Below are positions 3,189 to 10,786 of a stretch of DNA of 64,000 nucleotides, one piece after another (positions within the stretch are counted from its first letter, which is position 1; each line of letters opens with the position of its first letter). The notes beneath the pieces are model-generated. The model was not told the origin of the DNA and did not search any database. It saw nothing but the letters and a program-made list of their open reading frames with translations. Position numbers and translations under genes: made by a program. Origin of the DNA: a virus; IMG/VR virus record IMGVR_UViG_3300033153_009397, positions 1 to 64,000 of that record. One strand, written 5' to 3'.

Positions 3189-3764
3189 TTACGTTCCCAC
3201 GTTGAGGTCGTATCGAGCATAACGATAGTTTCCTTCGATTTCAGCATTTTGGAAATTCCCTTGGGCTCCATCAAAAGCTCGTCTAAAGAATGCAACATTG
3301 TAAAGCACATGTTTCTTATTCTTTCGCAAATTAATAACTTCAATTTGAAAAGTATACGGAACCATGTGTTTGCCTTCTGAAGTATTATCATTCCACAAAA
3401 ATGTGGCTGGGTCTACTCCTTCAATCGCATCATGAAACAATTCTGTCTCCCCATCAGCTTCATTAACTATTACTCCGAGAGCATACTTAAACAACTCATA
3501 ATTGATATGTTTTATTCTTACTCTAAAAGTTCCAAGAAAGTTTGCTTGTCTCTGTTCAATAGGCACATTAGTACCATATCCATGAAGAATTGACATATCA
3601 TTTCTATCCTCCCATCGAATATAGTCTATTCTACCAATGACTTGGGAATTCGTCTGTTGTCCAGAGCTATCAACAAATGCTGGTAGGCTTTGGTCACTTA
3701 TCTGAGTTTCCCCAGATACTTTTAACACGATATCAACGCTATGGTCAGATTTGTATTCTGGCAT
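3189..3764 (-). CDS. Tail tube protein (probable)
   Basis: A 191-residue protein directly after the tail sheath gene, the usual place of the tail tube. It is beta-rich, with a C-terminal FNAEIEGNYRYARYDL-like end (read NFQNAEIEGNYRYARYDL) typical of tube subunits that finish on a strand. I start it at ATG 3764, because GAGGTG sits seven bases upstream; the ATG at 3770 is almost on top of that site. Many tubes of this subunit would line the sheath encoded upstream. Confidence 0.65.
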   Translation of the reverse strand: MPEYKSDHSVDIVLKVSGETQISDQSLPAFVDSSGQQTNSQVIGRIDYIRWEDRNDMSILHGYGTNVPIEQRQANFLGTFRVRIKHINYELFKYALGVIVNEADGETELFHDAIEGVDPATFLWNDNTSEGKHMVPYTFQIEVINLRKNKKHVLYNVAFFRRAFDGAQGNFQNAEIEGNYRYARYDLNVGT

Positions 3765-3775
3765 TTTCATTCACC

Positions 3776-5047
3776 TCATATTGTTGCTGAAACAACTAAG
3801 TTCACATTTATCTCAGTCACTTCAAAGACTGGAACTATAGTTAAATCACATCTCATGATATGATTCACTTCATCGGTAGATGAAGCAAAAACATTCACGG
3901 CAAATTCTTTAATCATCCCTTGAGATACCATTTGCCTAAGAGTGCTTTCCACTCTTGACTTTGCTGTTGACCGACCTAATGAAGTATTATTTGAAAACAA
4001 GAATGGTAAGAGTGTATTTCTTGTTCTCTTGGCTGCTGTGTCTGCTATTTCACGAGTAGTCAAATAAGAGAAGTCTGAACCAGCAGCAGAAAATGTCCAT
4101 CCTTTATCAAACATATAAGAGACAGATGCACCAGTACTCCACCTTCGTGGAAATAGAACATGGTCATCGCTCATACTTTCCATATCAGCCTTTTTGAGTA
4201 CTGCTTTAGTAGTACTACCACTCCATACGGGGGTAAATCCTAAAGATTTCAAAGGAACATGTGGTTGCATAGCAGCACGTCTACCAGCTAACCAAGCAGC
4301 TAACCAGTTACCACCAATTTCCACACTCCCAGAAGCAAGAGAAAGAGCAGCCAGATGGGTATCAGAAACATCATAAACAACGTTTCCAAACTTATGAACA
4401 GTATTACCTACTAATGTGATTGTTCTTCCATAATCTGATTTTGCTCCAGCATAGCTACTTAAATCATAAGTAGTTCCACTGAACACTTCTTGATAACTAA
4501 CTCCAGTAATATAGATTCTTTCTTTTCCATTATTCACACTGGAAGCAGTTTCCATCTCCGTAGTTACAGCAGAAATAGGAGGTTTACCAGCTATTACAAC
4601 ATAATAAATATCATCAAACTCTCTAAGTTTTGCAAGAGCTTGAGTTGTTCCCGTATCAGCACTAGTACCATACGTACCAGTTCCAGAGAGTACACAAGCA
4701 TAAACTTTGGACGCTCCACCAAGAAAGGCCAATTCTACGGCTCTGATAAGATTAGTTTCATTATCATAGGCTCCAGTACCAAAAGTAGTTTGACTATAAG
4801 TTCCAGCATCCCAAGAACCAGAAAGAGCTAACCCGCATTTTTGTACAGCGTCAATAAGGTTATTCCAAACGAATACCTCACCTTCATTAGAAGCACTCCA
4901 TTTTTCGGCATCATTGATATTATAACCACTTGAGCCACTTTGCATATGTCCAATAACTGCTACTGCTCCAGTAGTTGTAGAAGGAGTAGGAGCTATACCT
5001 CTCGTGGTTTCTGTAATGAATATACCAGCGAGTTTATGTGTTGACAT
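3776..5047 (-). CDS. Contractile tail sheath protein
   Basis: The 423-residue protein begins MSTHKLAGIFITETTRGIAP, close to the N-terminal 'pGvy..e..~g..pi' strand of myovirus tail sheaths. It ends with a repetitive beta segment (NHIMRCDLTIVPVFEVTEINVNLVVSATI) like the sheath C-terminus that interlocks subunits. Ala/Gly/Ser/Thr-rich middle sections suit the surface domain. Its presence makes the virion a contractile-tail (myovirus-type) particle. The sheath-tube-chaperone-tape order downstream supports the call. The family average is longer; this is a compact sheath. Confidence 0.85.
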   Translation of the reverse strand: MSTHKLAGIFITETTRGIAPTPSTTTGAVAVIGHMQSGSSGYNINDAEKWSASNEGEVFVWNNLIDAVQKCGLALSGSWDAGTYSQTTFGTGAYDNETNLIRAVELAFLGGASKVYACVLSGTGTYGTSADTGTTQALAKLREFDDIYYVVIAGKPPISAVTTEMETASSVNNGKERIYITGVSYQEVFSGTTYDLSSYAGAKSDYGRTITLVGNTVHKFGNVVYDVSDTHLAALSLASGSVEIGGNWLAAWLAGRRAAMQPHVPLKSLGFTPVWSGSTTKAVLKKADMESMSDDHVLFPRRWSTGASVSYMFDKGWTFSAAGSDFSYLTTREIADTAAKRTRNTLLPFLFSNNTSLGRSTAKSRVESTLRQMVSQGMIKEFAVNVFASSTDEVNHIMRCDLTIVPVFEVTEINVNLVVSATI

Positions 5048-5080
5048 AATTACCTCTCGAATGAAGAGTATTTAAATCTT

Positions 5081-5788
5081 TTACTCACTTAAACTCCCAG
5101 AGGAATTAAGGATGTCATAAGATGCCGTTGTACCAGAAGAGATATATGACCTTTGAATAATCTCTTCAACCCATGTACTGTAATCTTTTTCTCCAGTAGG
5201 TGGCTTGAAATATACATCAGCAGTTACAGTCGTCCATATGGCTCTTCTGTACTCTTCACTAACCATAGCCTTATGGTCTACTTCCTTGATTATTCTGTCT
5301 GTCTGGTCGAAACCCATTATTTCAGAACGTATAACTTTAAGATTTCTTATTCCGACATTATACAAAGCGTTACTTTCTGGAGTATTCCCCCATTCTAGCC
5401 AATTTTCCACTTGTCCAGCTACAACATCTCTTTCCCATCCATGATGACCCCATACATCAAATCTTATAACATAATCACAAGTTTTTCCATAAACAACTGT
5501 TCCACTACTTCCACTGGCTGCGGGAATATTAAAAAGCATTGCTCCGTGATAATACCTACTTGATTCAGATACTATAGTTACTACACAAGTAGGTAGTTGA
5601 ATATTTTCTTTGGTAGGAAAGTCTCCAACAAATTTTATAGTAGCCCCAGTAGAACCAGACTGAAGATATACTGTCTCAGCAGTACCAGAAAGAAAATTAA
5701 TCAGATGTGCTTTTATACTATCCATAGGAGAAAATGCTCTCCCTTGATATTGAACCAATACTGAACCACTATAACTATCATAACTCAT
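5081..5788 (-). CDS. Tail terminator or neck protein (probable)
   Basis: A 235-residue protein immediately upstream of the sheath. It has an N-terminal pattern 'MDSIKAHLINFLS' followed by strands (LPTCVVTIVSESSRYYHG, DYVIRFDVWGHHGWERD), resembling tail-terminator proteins, where a helix is followed by a sheet and the domain caps the tail tube. The gene order connector, neck, terminator, sheath supports this. No catalytic residues are seen. The C-terminal 30 residues are Ser/Thr/Gly-rich and probably disordered. Confidence 0.5.
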   Translation of the reverse strand: MSYDSYSGSVLVQYQGRAFSPMDSIKAHLINFLSGTAETVYLQSGSTGATIKFVGDFPTKENIQLPTCVVTIVSESSRYYHGAMLFNIPAASGSSGTVVYGKTCDYVIRFDVWGHHGWERDVVAGQVENWLEWGNTPESNALYNVGIRNLKVIRSEIMGFDQTDRIIKEVDHKAMVSEEYRRAIWTTVTADVYFKPPTGEKDYSTWVEEIIQRSYISSGTTASYDILNSSGSLSE

Positions 5789-6662: not shown

Positions 6663-6874
6663 TTCTTAAACACTTCCTTACAAGTTACATTTCCTTTTTT
6701 AACTTCAAGTTCAATTTCAAGATTATCTACAATAGCCGTAACTATCATTCTAATATACCCATCAGAATCAGTCTTAAAATTCAAATCTCTTACCCAACCA
6801 ATTAATTGGTCGTCAAAAAAGACTTTTGTAAAATGTTTATGACCGTTATCTGACACAATTTTTAACTTCACCAT
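6659..6874 (-). CDS. Hypothetical small protein
   Basis: A 71-residue protein of alternating strands (VKLKIVSDNGHKHFTKVFFDDQLIGWV...) that shares its first base with the end of the glycosyltransferase gene (start 6874). The TATATATCACCTCC stretch beyond the start, read on the coding strand as GGAGGTGATATATA, is a strong ribosome site just before ATG. No family recognised. Confidence 0.55.
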   Translation of the reverse strand: MVKLKIVSDNGHKHFTKVFFDDQLIGWVRDLNFKTDSDGYIRMIVTAIVDNLEIELEVKKGNVTCKEVFKK

Positions 6875-8886
6875 TATATATCACCTCCTACAAGAACTTC
6901 GTAAAGCTTCTTAGCAGACCTTTTCCAAGTAAACCGTTTAACATCTTTCCTAGCTTGTGTTCCTAATCTGGAACATTCAGATGGATGTTCATAAGCATAC
7001 CTCATTGTTTTACGAAGATTATCTATAGAAGGAACTGCCCATTTCAAAGCATTAGTTGGAGCATACCATCCAGCTCCATTGCTAATTTCCATAGTTTCTG
7101 GTTTAACCAAGAACGAGTTTTTCTTGTTCATATAAGTCAAATGACCTCCATATTCTTGTGCAATACAAGGAATCCCACAATTATGAACTAAAATACCATT
7201 GGCAAAATATATTCCACTACTAGTGGCTATGTTATATACTTTTCCGCTAAAGTTGTATATTGACTTTGAGAGAATTTTACTCTTTGATTTAATTTTCTCA
7301 TCTCTATGAAGGCTTTCCAGTCTTCTTTTGTGTATTTGTTCATAAATGTTTCTTGTCTTTTTATTCGTCTGTTTATAAACGAAATCAATATTCCACATTG
7401 TTTCTTCTTCAAGATAAGATAAGGGTGCAATTTTTCTAGCAAAGGTAATATTTTCATTCCTTGCAAAATTGTTGTATAAAATTCCGATTTTTGTTGTCTC
7501 CTTTTTATATCCAAGTAACTTTCTGGAAAATTCTGTTTCAACCAATTGTGTATTTCTATACACTTGTTGCATATGCGTATTTGAGGAATTAAAGTGCCTA
7601 TCAATCTCTCTTCTGCTCGACCCTTTCGATGAAGTCGAAATGTTATTGTTCCATCTGCGTCTATAAACCCAGCCAGATATGAAATCATCTCCTCTGGAAT
7701 GTTTATATTCATCATCTTCATTCTTCCAATTTTTGTTTTCTTTAATTTCATTTCTCTTACTTTCATTCTTATTGAAGCTTCTGAACGTCTCTTTAACATC
7801 TTTGAAATTTGATAAGCTGTATGGGTCTCCCAATTTTCTTTCAAAACTTCCAATTCTTCTTTTGTCCATCTCATATAATTCATATAACTCATCACCTATT
7901 AATATGTCTTTTGCCATCTTCCATCCATTAACTGTGAAAATGGGGTGTTCTGGAGTACATTCAAGTATTGAACTCTCTGTTTCAATCCTAATCATTTTAC
8001 CATCATAATGTCTTACATGTACATCTTCTATGCCACTTGGTATATCAACCAAAGTATTATATGGAAAACATGCCATACTTTGCATATATGGGAGACACCA
8101 ACTTTCCCCTTTACTTGGTAAAATGAAACAGTCTGCACTGTTGTAAAGCTTTCTTAATCCTTCTTCATTGAACATTTGTCCAATAACTAAAATATGAGGA
8201 GGATTTTTTAATCCCATGTCATAACTTAGTCTTTTAACGCTGTTTTGAATATTAACCATAGTAGCAAAAGTATTATCTTTTCCATAGGTTTTAATGATTA
8301 AGTTTACTTTGTCATCACCAGTAAATTCACTAAGATAAGATTTCAACAGTTCATGAAATCCTTTCCGCATTATCCATTGACCTAAAGAAAGAAAGACAAA
8401 TCTATTTTGGTCATCCTTTTTAATCATAGGTTCATCTGGATAAAACGTCTTGGTATCTACTCCGTGATTAACTATGTGAATTGGTTTAGGAACATTCCCT
8501 ATAGAATCTTTAATCATATTTTTCACAAATTTATTAACAGTTACATATTCATCATAAACGCTTATTAACTCTCTCCATAGAGGCGGAAGCCTATCATTTT
8601 CCCACACAAACTTTATCAAGTTCCTTGTATGGTCTGGTGGTGTATTCCAAATTACTGGAGTACCGTATCTTAGAAGCGGAACTTGAAGAGTAGAAGTATT
8701 CTTCATCATTGAAGTAAAAATTTCTGCTTCTTTTTCTGGTAAATTTAAACGCATTTTATCTACGTGATTATCTACCAAATGAATGTCCAATCCAAGTTCA
8801 TTCATTCCTAATAGTAGTTTTCTAGCTACAAAAGAATATCCACTTGGAGCAAATACTGTCGTTTCTATTTTAACGTCTGCTGTCAT
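6874..8886 (-). CDS. GT-B glycosyltransferase (GT4-like) interrupted by an intein
   Basis: The 670-residue precursor holds a glycosyltransferase of about 373 residues split by a 297-residue intein after Ala272. Extein motifs: VNHGVDTKTFYP and LSLGQWIMRKGFHELL (GT4-type mid region), then the sugar-nucleotide segment GESWCLPYMQSMA|CGIPCIAQEYGGH, where the intein sits inside the conserved 'E..a.aCG.P' motif. Splicing should therefore be needed for activity. The start TAATG overlaps the stop of a second glycosyltransferase gene, so both are made together. They probably glycosylate a virion or host-surface target; the acceptor is unknown. Confidence 0.85.
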   Translation of the reverse strand: MTADVKIETTVFAPSGYSFVARKLLLGMNELGLDIHLVDNHVDKMRLNLPEKEAEIFTSMMKNTSTLQVPLLRYGTPVIWNTPPDHTRNLIKFVWENDRLPPLWRELISVYDEYVTVNKFVKNMIKDSIGNVPKPIHIVNHGVDTKTFYPDEPMIKKDDQNRFVFLSLGQWIMRKGFHELLKSYLSEFTGDDKVNLIIKTYGKDNTFATMVNIQNSVKRLSYDMGLKNPPHILVIGQMFNEEGLRKLYNSADCFILPSKGESWCLPYMQSMACFPYNTLVDIPSGIEDVHVRHYDGKMIRIETESSILECTPEHPIFTVNGWKMAKDILIGDELYELYEMDKRRIGSFERKLGDPYSLSNFKDVKETFRSFNKNESKRNEIKENKNWKNEDDEYKHSRGDDFISGWVYRRRWNNNISTSSKGSSRREIDRHFNSSNTHMQQVYRNTQLVETEFSRKLLGYKKETTKIGILYNNFARNENITFARKIAPLSYLEEETMWNIDFVYKQTNKKTRNIYEQIHKRRLESLHRDEKIKSKSKILSKSIYNFSGKVYNIATSSGIYFANGILVHNCGIPCIAQEYGGHLTYMNKKNSFLVKPETMEISNGAGWYAPTNALKWAVPSIDNLRKTMRYAYEHPSECSRLGTQARKDVKRFTWKRSAKKLYEVLVGGDI
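7180..8070 (-). mobile_element. Intein in glycosyltransferase, 297 residues
   Basis: The N-terminal splicing block starts at Cys1 (CFPYNTLVDIPSG, codon 8070-8068). Block B has the TxxH motif (ECTPEHPIFTVNGW). The C-terminal blocks read YNFSGKVYNIATSSGIYF and ANGILVHN, ending in Asn (7182-7180) followed by Cys+1 of the extein. All residues expected for class 1 splicing are present. Between blocks B and F the intein frame encodes a Lys/Arg/Asn/Ser-rich stretch with no LAGLIDADG motif; the endonuclease is found in the +1 frame of the same DNA (next entry). Confidence 0.9.
7227..7883 (-). CDS. LAGLIDADG homing endonuclease nested out of frame inside the intein
   Basis: An open frame in the +1 phase relative to the intein encodes MNYMRWTKEELEVLKENW..., a Myb/SANT-like helix-turn-helix (about residues 4-48: W..eEle.Lken...tayqIskmLkRrseasIrmkv), then the LAGLIDADG helix YLAGFIDADGTITFRL and a typical single-motif LAGLIDADG body. 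The open frame begins at GTG 7895; I chose ATG 7883 because AGGTG lies nine bases upstream. The gene begins at the end of intein block B and ends inside block F, exactly where in-frame endonucleases normally sit. With one LAGLIDADG motif it would act as a homodimer, cutting intein-less alleles. Confidence 0.85.
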   Translation of the reverse strand: MNYMRWTKEELEVLKENWETHTAYQISKMLKRRSEASIRMKVREMKLKKTKIGRMKMMNINIPEEMISYLAGFIDADGTITFRLHRKGRAEERLIGTLIPQIRICNKCIEIHNWLKQNFPESYLDIKRRQQKSEFYTTILQGMKILPLLEKLHPYLILKKKQCGILISFINRRIKRQETFMNKYTKEDWKAFIEMRKLNQRVKFSQSQYTTLAEKYIT

Positions 8887-10214
8887 TATATTAACCCCAC
8901 TCTGTTATTTACTTTTTCAAGTACTTCTATCCACATTTTATCTACCACTTTCCAGTCAAAGTTTTTGACTGCCCATTCTCTACAAGATTTACTTTGTTTA
9001 TCTATCAGCTCTTGATTTTTGTAATAAGCTTCCATACCCAAAGCAAAAGCGTCAACATCAACCCATGCCTTGTGTACTCCAGAATGTTCCAGATATAACC
9101 TTGATGGAAGAATTGGCATACCTCTCATCTGGTCGATTTCTAACATCTTCCCATCATTATCAGTAGCTATTAACTCTCTTGTTGTAGTATAATCTGTAAT
9201 AAGATTAGGTTTACCACAACTCATAGCCTCAATAATGGGTATTCCAAAACCTTCTCCTCCAGTACTCAAAACATGAACATTGAAAGAATTATACAAAAGA
9301 ACAAGGTCATGAGATGGAATACCTTCAATGAAATCATAAGCAGTACCTTCAATCTTCCTCGGAGGAGTAATTATAACATTGTCATTTAATTTTAATGCAT
9401 CAATCCATTCAAGAAATAGATAGTCATGATTATGGTCTGGCATAAACAAAGGGTCTTTAGGGTCAAGATGAAGATAAAGATAACAACGTTTTCTTTTTTC
9501 ATCAATCTCTTGCTGAGTTGGCCCAGTATCAAGAAATTTTCTAAATGCTGTTAACAACCTAATATGATGTTTTCTTAGATTTAATCTAGCCACTGAACCA
9601 AAAATGAATGCGTCTTCCAAATCGCACTGACGAGTTCTTAATCCGTACATTTCAAAGAACGCCTTTCTGCATTCTATCATGTTAGCGGGACTGAACTTTT
9701 TAGTATCTAAACCATGAGGAATATATTCAGAATGAAGCTTTAACTGTAACTGGACTAATTCTCTGCCATACTTAGACATGCATACTCTTACATCTGCTTT
9801 CGGTAATGTTCCCCCAATTATCTGATTGATTGGATGCCCATCAATCGGCAAATACCATATCCAAAATGGTCTTGGCATACTACCTAACTGGTCTACCATA
9901 TGGGCATCTCCTTGAGTAAAAACCACGTCTGGATTAGTCATCTGAAATAATGGGTCATAGCTGTCCTTTCCAAAAGGAGCTCTTCCCTTAATTCCGTGTA
10001 TCTTAAAAGGGAACCCTTTGATATCTGGATTTCCTCTGGTTTGCCAACCTAGATAATGTACATCCCACTTCATTTTTTCAGCTGCTAAAGCAGCAATGTG
10101 TCCACACTGGTTCGCAAAACCCGTAGGATAATAGGGACTATCAGAACCAAAAATAGCTACTGGTGTTTTGTCCCCTATTTGTATGTTAGTTTGAACATCG
10201 ACATTATTTGTCAT
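8886..10214 (-). CDS. GT-B glycosyltransferase (GT4-like)
   Basis: About 442 residues from ATG 10214 (MTNNVDVQTNIQIGDKTPVAIFGSDSPYYPTGFA...). The frame is open back to 10322, but that would overlap the upstream gene by 64 bases, so I prefer the internal start. Motifs: EYIPHGLDTKKFSP, FGSVARLNLRKHHIRLL, and the E-x7-E site GGEGFGIPIIEAMSCGKPNLI of retaining GT4 enzymes. It overlaps the intein-bearing glycosyltransferase by TAATG. The pair probably builds or extends a glycan, possibly on capsid or tail proteins, as both sit inside the virion operon. Confidence 0.85.
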   Translation of the reverse strand: MTNNVDVQTNIQIGDKTPVAIFGSDSPYYPTGFANQCGHIAALAAEKMKWDVHYLGWQTRGNPDIKGFPFKIHGIKGRAPFGKDSYDPLFQMTNPDVVFTQGDAHMVDQLGSMPRPFWIWYLPIDGHPINQIIGGTLPKADVRVCMSKYGRELVQLQLKLHSEYIPHGLDTKKFSPANMIECRKAFFEMYGLRTRQCDLEDAFIFGSVARLNLRKHHIRLLTAFRKFLDTGPTQQEIDEKRKRCYLYLHLDPKDPLFMPDHNHDYLFLEWIDALKLNDNVIITPPRKIEGTAYDFIEGIPSHDLVLLYNSFNVHVLSTGGEGFGIPIIEAMSCGKPNLITDYTTTRELIATDNDGKMLEIDQMRGMPILPSRLYLEHSGVHKAWVDVDAFALGMEAYYKNQELIDKQSKSCREWAVKNFDWKVVDKMWIEVLEKVNNRVGLI

Positions 10215-10258
10215 GTATAGACTATTATTCTTACAACATTTAAATGTTTCTAATAATT

Positions 10259-10786
10259 TTATAATTGCGGTGTCGACGGGTACGTTATGTTTTGAGAAAT
10301 ATCTTTCTTCCACAACATACAAGCAATATAAATAACTCTATTACTAGTACCAAAATAAGGTACAACATTTGCCACATCAAATTCTATTTGTTGTTGAGGA
10401 GCGTCAATAGGCCAGATAATAGTATCTCCTACAACTATCTTTCCCCACTCATAACCATAAGTGTACATAAGATAATCATACCTCTGAAGCCTACCAGCCT
10501 CAGAAACAAAATCTGCGTTACCACTTCTACCGTGAGGAGGAAAAGCCTCCATAATGCATTGAATAGGACGGTCATCGGCATTACCATAAATCCACCCATC
10601 ATTACAAATACTACAATAAGGGTCTCTATTCTCTGTAATTGCATCCCAACAAGAACAACGAACAGAATCCTTCTTAGCTAACAATCTAGCCCAAGAAGGG
10701 AATTGCGATAAAATAATAGTAAATTCTCTTTCATCTATTATAGGAGTATGTGGACTTCCTATTTTCAATTGTCTATGTTGAGACAT
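10259..10786 (-). CDS. Head-tail connector/head-closure-like protein with Cys motifs
   Basis: A 175-residue protein with a Cys cluster CSCWDAIT...DPYCSICNDGWIYG (about residues 44-70) that looks like a Zn site, then a beta-rich body (IVVGDTIIWPIDAPQQQIEFDV). Similar Cys-containing proteins sit between the capsid and neck genes in several phages, where the beta-barrel seals the head. Function by position only. Confidence 0.45.
   Translation of the reverse strand: MSQHRQLKIGSPHTPIIDEREFTIILSQFPSWARLLAKKDSVRCSCWDAITENRDPYCSICNDGWIYGNADDRPIQCIMEAFPPHGRSGNADFVSEAGRLQRYDYLMYTYGYEWGKIVVGDTIIWPIDAPQQQIEFDVANVVPYFGTSNRVIYIACMLWKKDISQNITYPSTPQL

Follow-up and report, generated by a model that had tools for sequence, protein, structure and literature searches.

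The window analyzed here is a stretch of 64,000 nucleotides from a viral record (IMGVR_UViG_3300033153_009397, positions 1 to 64,000), and the locus under study lies on its minus strand. The host gene (6874..8886, minus strand) encodes a GT4-type glycosyltransferase with an intein insert and is open over all 670 codons. The ORF, read from 8886 to 6874, matches Glycos_transf_1 (PF00534) in Pfam at 6e-9 and phrog_2170 at 3e-28. Motifs and profiles place the intein, which comprises 297 residues in the host frame, at 7180..8070 (minus strand); it begins with Cys1 (codon 8070-8068) and ends with His-Asn (last Asn codon 7182-7180), followed by Cys+1 at 7179. The insertion point is in the GT4 motif QSMA|CGIPCI, at the conserved MA|CGIP. 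A relative from Microcystis phage Mel-JY01 that lacks the intein has EAMACGIP, and excision would restore MACGIP. A second GT4 glycosyltransferase gene is located directly upstream (8886-10322, minus strand); it is intein-free, and its equivalent motif is EAMSCGKP.

As an earlier note made from the sequence alone had stated, the splicing blocks are in one open glycosyltransferase frame. They include Cys1, block B (TPEHPIF), a block F of the form VYN...GIYFANG and then HN|C. In 20 aligned inteins the invariant residues are C1, T39 and H42 of block B, Y279 of block F and the terminal His-Asn pair, H296 and N297. The N-terminal splicing part (7884..8070, minus strand), with Cys1 and the TPEH of block B, is delimited by motifs, AlphaFold2 (AF2) modeling and coding potential; pLDDT is 73-91 over residues 21-60, and the coding potential is +0.28 bits per codon in the host frame. 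The C-terminal splicing part (7180..7229, minus strand), which holds the end of block F and block G (...SSGIYFANGILVHN), is assigned from TIGR01443 and the alignment, and the start of block F is overlapped by the 3' end of the nuclease gene described below. TIGR01443 (intein C terminus) scores over its cut-off; the N-terminal TIGRFAM, TIGR01445, is under its cut-off, and the Pfam match to Intein_splicing (PF14890, 6e-6) is under the gathering cut-off. The AF2 model of the whole intein frame is poor (pLDDT 47); only its ordered part around block B and its disordered middle are informative, so that the splicing fold is backed by motifs more than by the model. On these sequence features, the 8070-7180 insert is an intein with putative splicing activity. 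The nearest in sequence to its N-terminal half are inteins of phage head-protein and deaminase genes (L011, L012, L015, L016 and L017), which have no visible nuclease and have in common an in-frame linker with a (F)HGD...(D/E)(V/I)(D/E)V(V/I) motif.

In +1, an uninterrupted run of 222 codons (7895-7230) extends between blocks B and F and ends with a TAG (7229-7227) inside block F. It contains a nested single-motif LAGLIDADG endonuclease gene (7227..7883, minus strand; 218 residues and the TAG stop), identified by profiles, AF2 and Foldseek, in which the motif has the form LAGFIDADG and is present in one copy. The match to LAGLIDADG_1 in Pfam (7e-4) is under the cut-off, and the match to phrog_5046 is at 4.5e-14. 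The AF2 model (pLDDT 81, pTM 0.71) aligns in Foldseek with I-CreI (2xe0) at an E value of 1.4e-9 and a TM score of 0.75 by target length, and a profile of 23 relatives of the nuclease found I-CreI and I-MsoI in the PDB by sequence. The product is predicted from these models and profiles to be an I-CreI-type LAGLIDADG homing endonuclease, in the position and frame that the earlier note had given for it. Its N terminus, previously described as a Myb-like domain, matches phrog_323 and phrog_1891 and is modeled as helices at pLDDT 59-77, which weakly indicates a helix-turn-helix-like domain; the Myb label itself is weak. The best predicted start is the ATG at 7883, 7 nt behind the Shine-Dalgarno (SD) sequence AGGTGAT (7891..7897, minus strand), which is spelled by the intein codons ATA-GGT-GAT (Ile-Gly-Asp). 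This SD is short, with a pairing energy of -3.7. The SD-like AGGTG proposed previously is retained, and the start is shifted from the ATG that abuts it to the ATG at 7883. Two stops in the nuclease frame, TAA TAG (7896..7901, minus strand), immediately precede the start region of the nuclease. Read in the intein frame, the overprinted stretch (7230..7883, minus strand) is stop-free and encodes a sequence rich in Lys, Ser, Asn, Glu and Arg that is predicted to be disordered (pLDDT about 28-43). No further copy of the nuclease was found in the rest of this phage.

The openness of both frames was compared with a null model in which the nuclease protein is kept, codons are drawn from the usage of the phage and stops are counted in the intein frame. 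Over the nuclease, 18.7 intein-frame stops are expected and none is observed (exact P = 4.7e-12). In the reverse test, the probability that the nuclease frame is open given the intein protein is 1.8e-5. Off-frame open runs in 79 other genes of this genome reach 93 codons at most. Codon scores over the overlap are -0.01 in each frame, compared with +0.21 for genes and -0.21 for off-frames; intermediate values in both frames are what dual coding would give. The intein frame is kept open by selection, as had been suspected from the approximately 220 codons that are open in both frames.

The region is present in a second IMG/VR record (G001, 37,556 bases) that is identical over 12.8 kb around the gene; the samples of the two records may be related. 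Elsewhere the two records are distinguished by a small number of substitutions and short insertions. Near window positions 345, 14970 and 15249 they are separated by insertions of about 51, 51 and 31 bases, with otherwise identical sequence. Contig G001:C1 bridges both ends of the 80,003-base record (G000:C1) through about 5.3 kb, so that the phage genome is probably circular or circularly permuted, with a size of about 85 kb. Searches with the whole host protein, the N-extein and the nuclease found one identical viral contig only and no diverged relative of the window locus, and a search of genome contigs with the nuclease alone found no relative. Matches to Gordonia methylases (Whitney, Getalong) were dropped as homologues because they were not useful in the aligned frame. 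The comparison of both frames between homologues that had been suggested earlier thus yielded an identical contig only for the window locus, and was achieved in the sister loci of a second nuclease family, which are stop-free and conserve the nuclease.

A search of phage genomes for related inteins was the source of these sister loci; it identified a helicase intein of a Vibrio phage in which a 263-codon ORF in +1 encodes an EDxHD/Vsr-type endonuclease (Pfam DUF559). In the first 14 helicase-family loci, which are from Vibrio, Pseudomonas MR14, Corynebacterium phi673 and metagenomes and extend down to about 35-40% identity, an EDxHD/Vsr nuclease is nested in all 14 with the same +1 relation. 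Between 8 and 22 intein-frame stops are expected in each, and none is seen (P from 1e-4 to 3e-13). We have used the term nested where more than 90% of the match is covered by an off-frame ORF that exceeds 200 codons (150 for LAGLIDADG). A profile search of IMG/VR for EDxHD/Vsr nucleases gave 80 relatives that comprise 70 nested cases, five fused in frame and five not nested; the 70 represent 64 distinct proteins and are all in +1. In bacterial genome bins, five of seven EDxHD/Vsr loci are nested. The nested EDxHD/Vsr (DUF559) cases are designated L071-L145 (IMG/VR) and L018 and L020-L032 (phages). The inteins of this class were confirmed with Pfam for a sample, and a VxN|C-type end is visible in nearly all. 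According to Pfam, the host proteins tested are DEAD-type helicases, SNF2 helicases and DnaX-type clamp loaders, together with a DUF2201 metallopeptidase in the LAGLIDADG case. The isolate phage records examined (four to six kinds, including Vibrio CP-T1, Pseudomonas MR14 and Corynebacterium phi673) are annotated with a helicase or hypothetical protein only and no nuclease. In five distant EDxHD relatives (L146-L150), the nuclease is fused in frame within a long ORF that has intein-like motifs at its C-terminal end; these may be related to the ancestral arrangement.

Apart from the identical contig, 35 LAGLIDADG relatives of the window nuclease were found, of which two (L043 and L052) are nested in +1 and 33 are not nested; the off-frames of these 33, used as controls, are not open. 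In L043 and L052 (about 3253-5433), the nuclease is in the +1 frame inside the intein of a DUF2201 VWA/HExxH metallopeptidase, and its N terminus is helix-turn-helix-like. The LAGLIDADG tree, in which branches are long, places the window nuclease apart from these two (two changes), and their nesting and that of the window nuclease may have a single origin. The distance from the block B His to the nuclease Met is 21 residues at the window locus, compared with a median of 20 in the EDxHD sister class, and that from the nuclease stop to the last Asn is 16 residues compared with a median of 15. The similarity of these distances supports one common plan.

Evidence for selection on the nuclease is from the EDxHD sister family. 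In close pairs of helicase loci, the differences over the nuclease by host codon position (1:2:3) are 32:5:0, 35:6:1 and 20:4:3, where host codon position 1 corresponds to nuclease codon position 3. In the flanks of these loci, the differences are at host codon position 3 (71 and 197 in the pair with 32:5:0). This change in host codon position, from 3 in flanking DNA to 1 within the nuclease region, indicates purifying selection on the nuclease in this family. Identity is higher in the nuclease frame than in the intein frame, for the same DNA, in 78 of 78 EDxHD pairs (means of 53 and 34%). In L043 and L052, the signal of purifying selection on the nested frame is weaker than in the EDxHD sister family. 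For the nested nucleases, the anti-SD pairing energy is -4.05 kcal/mol at the first ATG as compared with -2.23 kcal/mol at internal ATGs (p = 1.6e-4).

The genetic code offers an explanation for the frame relation. Every intein-frame stop begins at the third base of a nuclease codon, as NNT followed by AA, AG or GA, and because a change of NNT to NNC is always synonymous, each such stop can be removed with the nuclease protein unchanged. All proteins tested accordingly have a minimum of zero unavoidable stops in the intein frame. In the other off-frame, a TGA is forced wherever an A comes after Met, and the mean number of unavoidable stops is 3.6, with nine for the window nuclease. In nested nucleases, none of 1120 pyrimidine-ending codons before AA, AG or GA ends in T, as compared with 64% elsewhere; in non-nested nucleases the corresponding values are 66 and 65%. 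The zero follows from the definition of nested, and the sequences are related, so that it is the size of the effect that matters and not a p-value. The shared +1 frame within the EDxHD group may also reflect common descent.

The finding that the intein frame is stop-free beyond chance argues against both alternatives that the earlier note had raised, in which either errors or programmed shifts act on an ordinary fused protein. In either case the intein frame over the nuclease would be unconstrained and about 19 stops would be due, but none is present (P = 4.7e-12). Two compensating single-base errors of assembly or sequencing could have shifted an ordinary in-frame nuclease, and the in-frame nucleases of ordinary inteins, of which L146-L150 are five EDxHD examples, make this a natural suggestion. 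However, errors would not have produced a stop-free frame, another record that differs elsewhere has the region at 100% identity, TAA TAG stands in the nuclease frame right before the nuclease start, and the same arrangement occurs in dozens of other records, isolate genomes included. The stop-free frame weighs more heavily here than the agreement of the two records. Errors are therefore extremely improbable. Programmed ribosomal frameshifts, +1 into the nuclease and then back, would produce a fused intein-nuclease and would agree with the constancy of the +1 relation, but the unshifted frame need not then stay open, and it is open in every nested case. One message would need two shifts, the TAATAG is located just upstream of the nuclease start, and start sites with an SD exist; we regard this explanation as highly improbable.

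It is very unlikely that the nuclease frame is a dead relic or a chance ORF and that the intein alone is expressed. The Pfam scores of the nuclease, which are under the cut-off, are in keeping with such a relic, but the frame encodes an intact 218-residue I-CreI-like fold with a LAGFIDADG motif, its openness has a probability of 1.8e-5 given the intein protein, and the EDxHD sister family conserves the nuclease frame in all 78 pairs. The remaining alternative is a group I intron that carries the nuclease and is removed as RNA, and some relatives of the nuclease do sit in interrupted capsid-like genes (L036 and L045). For the window insert this is hardly credible, since no Rfam covariance model matches near threshold and the insert is open in the host frame, with Cys1, TxxH and HN|C. 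The nuclease relatives in L036 (3661-5221) and L045 (2804-5585) are flanked by pieces of a capsid-like gene in the manner of mobile introns, and there are three such ORFs in L045; at these two loci, the Rfam group I models gave no match over threshold.

The usual description of an intein is of a single polypeptide that has both a splicing and a nuclease domain, and the arrangement in the window departs from it. The window locus shares with canonical homing inteins a LAGLIDADG nuclease enclosed by blocks A, B, F and G and an insertion site in a conserved active-site motif. In the canonical form, however, the intein polypeptide includes the nuclease, which usually contains two motifs, whereas at the window locus the nuclease lies outside the frame of the splicing blocks, in a separate gene with one motif (I-CreI type). 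Phage lambda Rz/Rz1 is an example of nested phage genes in which one lies in the +1 frame of the other and has a start of its own, similar to the window in these respects but without mobility or protein splicing. Of the published cases found, the ShiLan domain (Pacc40 insertion), with out-of-frame HNH endonucleases in mycobacteriophage DNA methylases (PMC11855218, 2025), comes closest; it is not located in an intein. As in the window, the phage host gene has an insertion without stops in the host frame, and a different frame of the insertion encodes a homing-type endonuclease. In contrast, the ShiLan insertion has no splicing domain and is thought to be retained in the protein, whereas that of the window is an intein with splicing blocks; the ShiLan nuclease is of the HNH type and no SD was found for it, whereas the window nuclease is a LAGLIDADG enzyme with an SD. 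The HNH frame, as derived from the start and stop positions printed in PMC11855218, appears to be +2 as compared with +1 in the window. The +1 rule is therefore a bias and not a law.

In fractured genes, as Dassa et al. (2009) are cited in PMC12139763, split inteins have a free EDxHD/Vsr nuclease between their halves. On that account the nuclease gene is likewise separate from the splicing protein, and the EDxHD family is the one that is nested in the sister class, but the host gene is split in two and the intein acts in trans, whereas the window host gene is one open frame. In the literature covered, no description of an out-of-frame nuclease inside an intein was found. The ShiLan paper (PMC11855218) refers to a preprint (Gosselin et al. 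2025) that deals with 'non-canonical architecture' in the inteins of actinobacteriophages and, on overlapping frames, to Gorbalenya (1998); part of the arrangement may already have been described in these works.

The evidence thus supports the proposal in the earlier note of a nested, separately made nuclease, through the openness of the intein frame. We consider it probable, at about 88%, that the locus is a homing intein in which the endonuclease is a separate overprinted gene, with the nuclease made separately; the splicing, start, cleavage and homing that this entails are inferred. In the mechanism that we propose, a single mRNA of the glycosyltransferase gene would be read twice, from two start sites. 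Ribosomes from the host ATG (8886) would read through the intein frame to give a precursor in which the splicing halves flank a long disordered linker, and self-excision would join ...QSMA to CGIPC.... Other ribosomes would start at the internal ATG at 7883 behind AGGTGAT and read in +1 to give a free, homodimeric I-CreI-like nuclease. The free nuclease would cut intein-less copies of the gene at MA|CGIP, and repair would copy the intein in. Selection on the host gene would purge intein-frame stops, and selection for homing would keep the nuclease protein.

The locus probably belongs to a widespread and largely unannotated class of homing inteins in which the splicing domain and the nuclease are overlapping, separately translated genes, with multiple origins and at least two unrelated nuclease families. 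The frame in this class would always be +1 because only there can all stops be purged by changes that are synonymous in the nuclease, and because intein codons close to where block B ends can also serve as the SD and start of the nuclease. The splicing and nuclease functions would then be separate at translation but physically linked in the DNA, and the nuclease and the host protein could accordingly be made at different levels. Because gene callers annotate the host ORF only, many homing endonucleases are overlooked. The nested cases also provide a natural test set for overlapping genes, with a rule on which frame can be overprinted.
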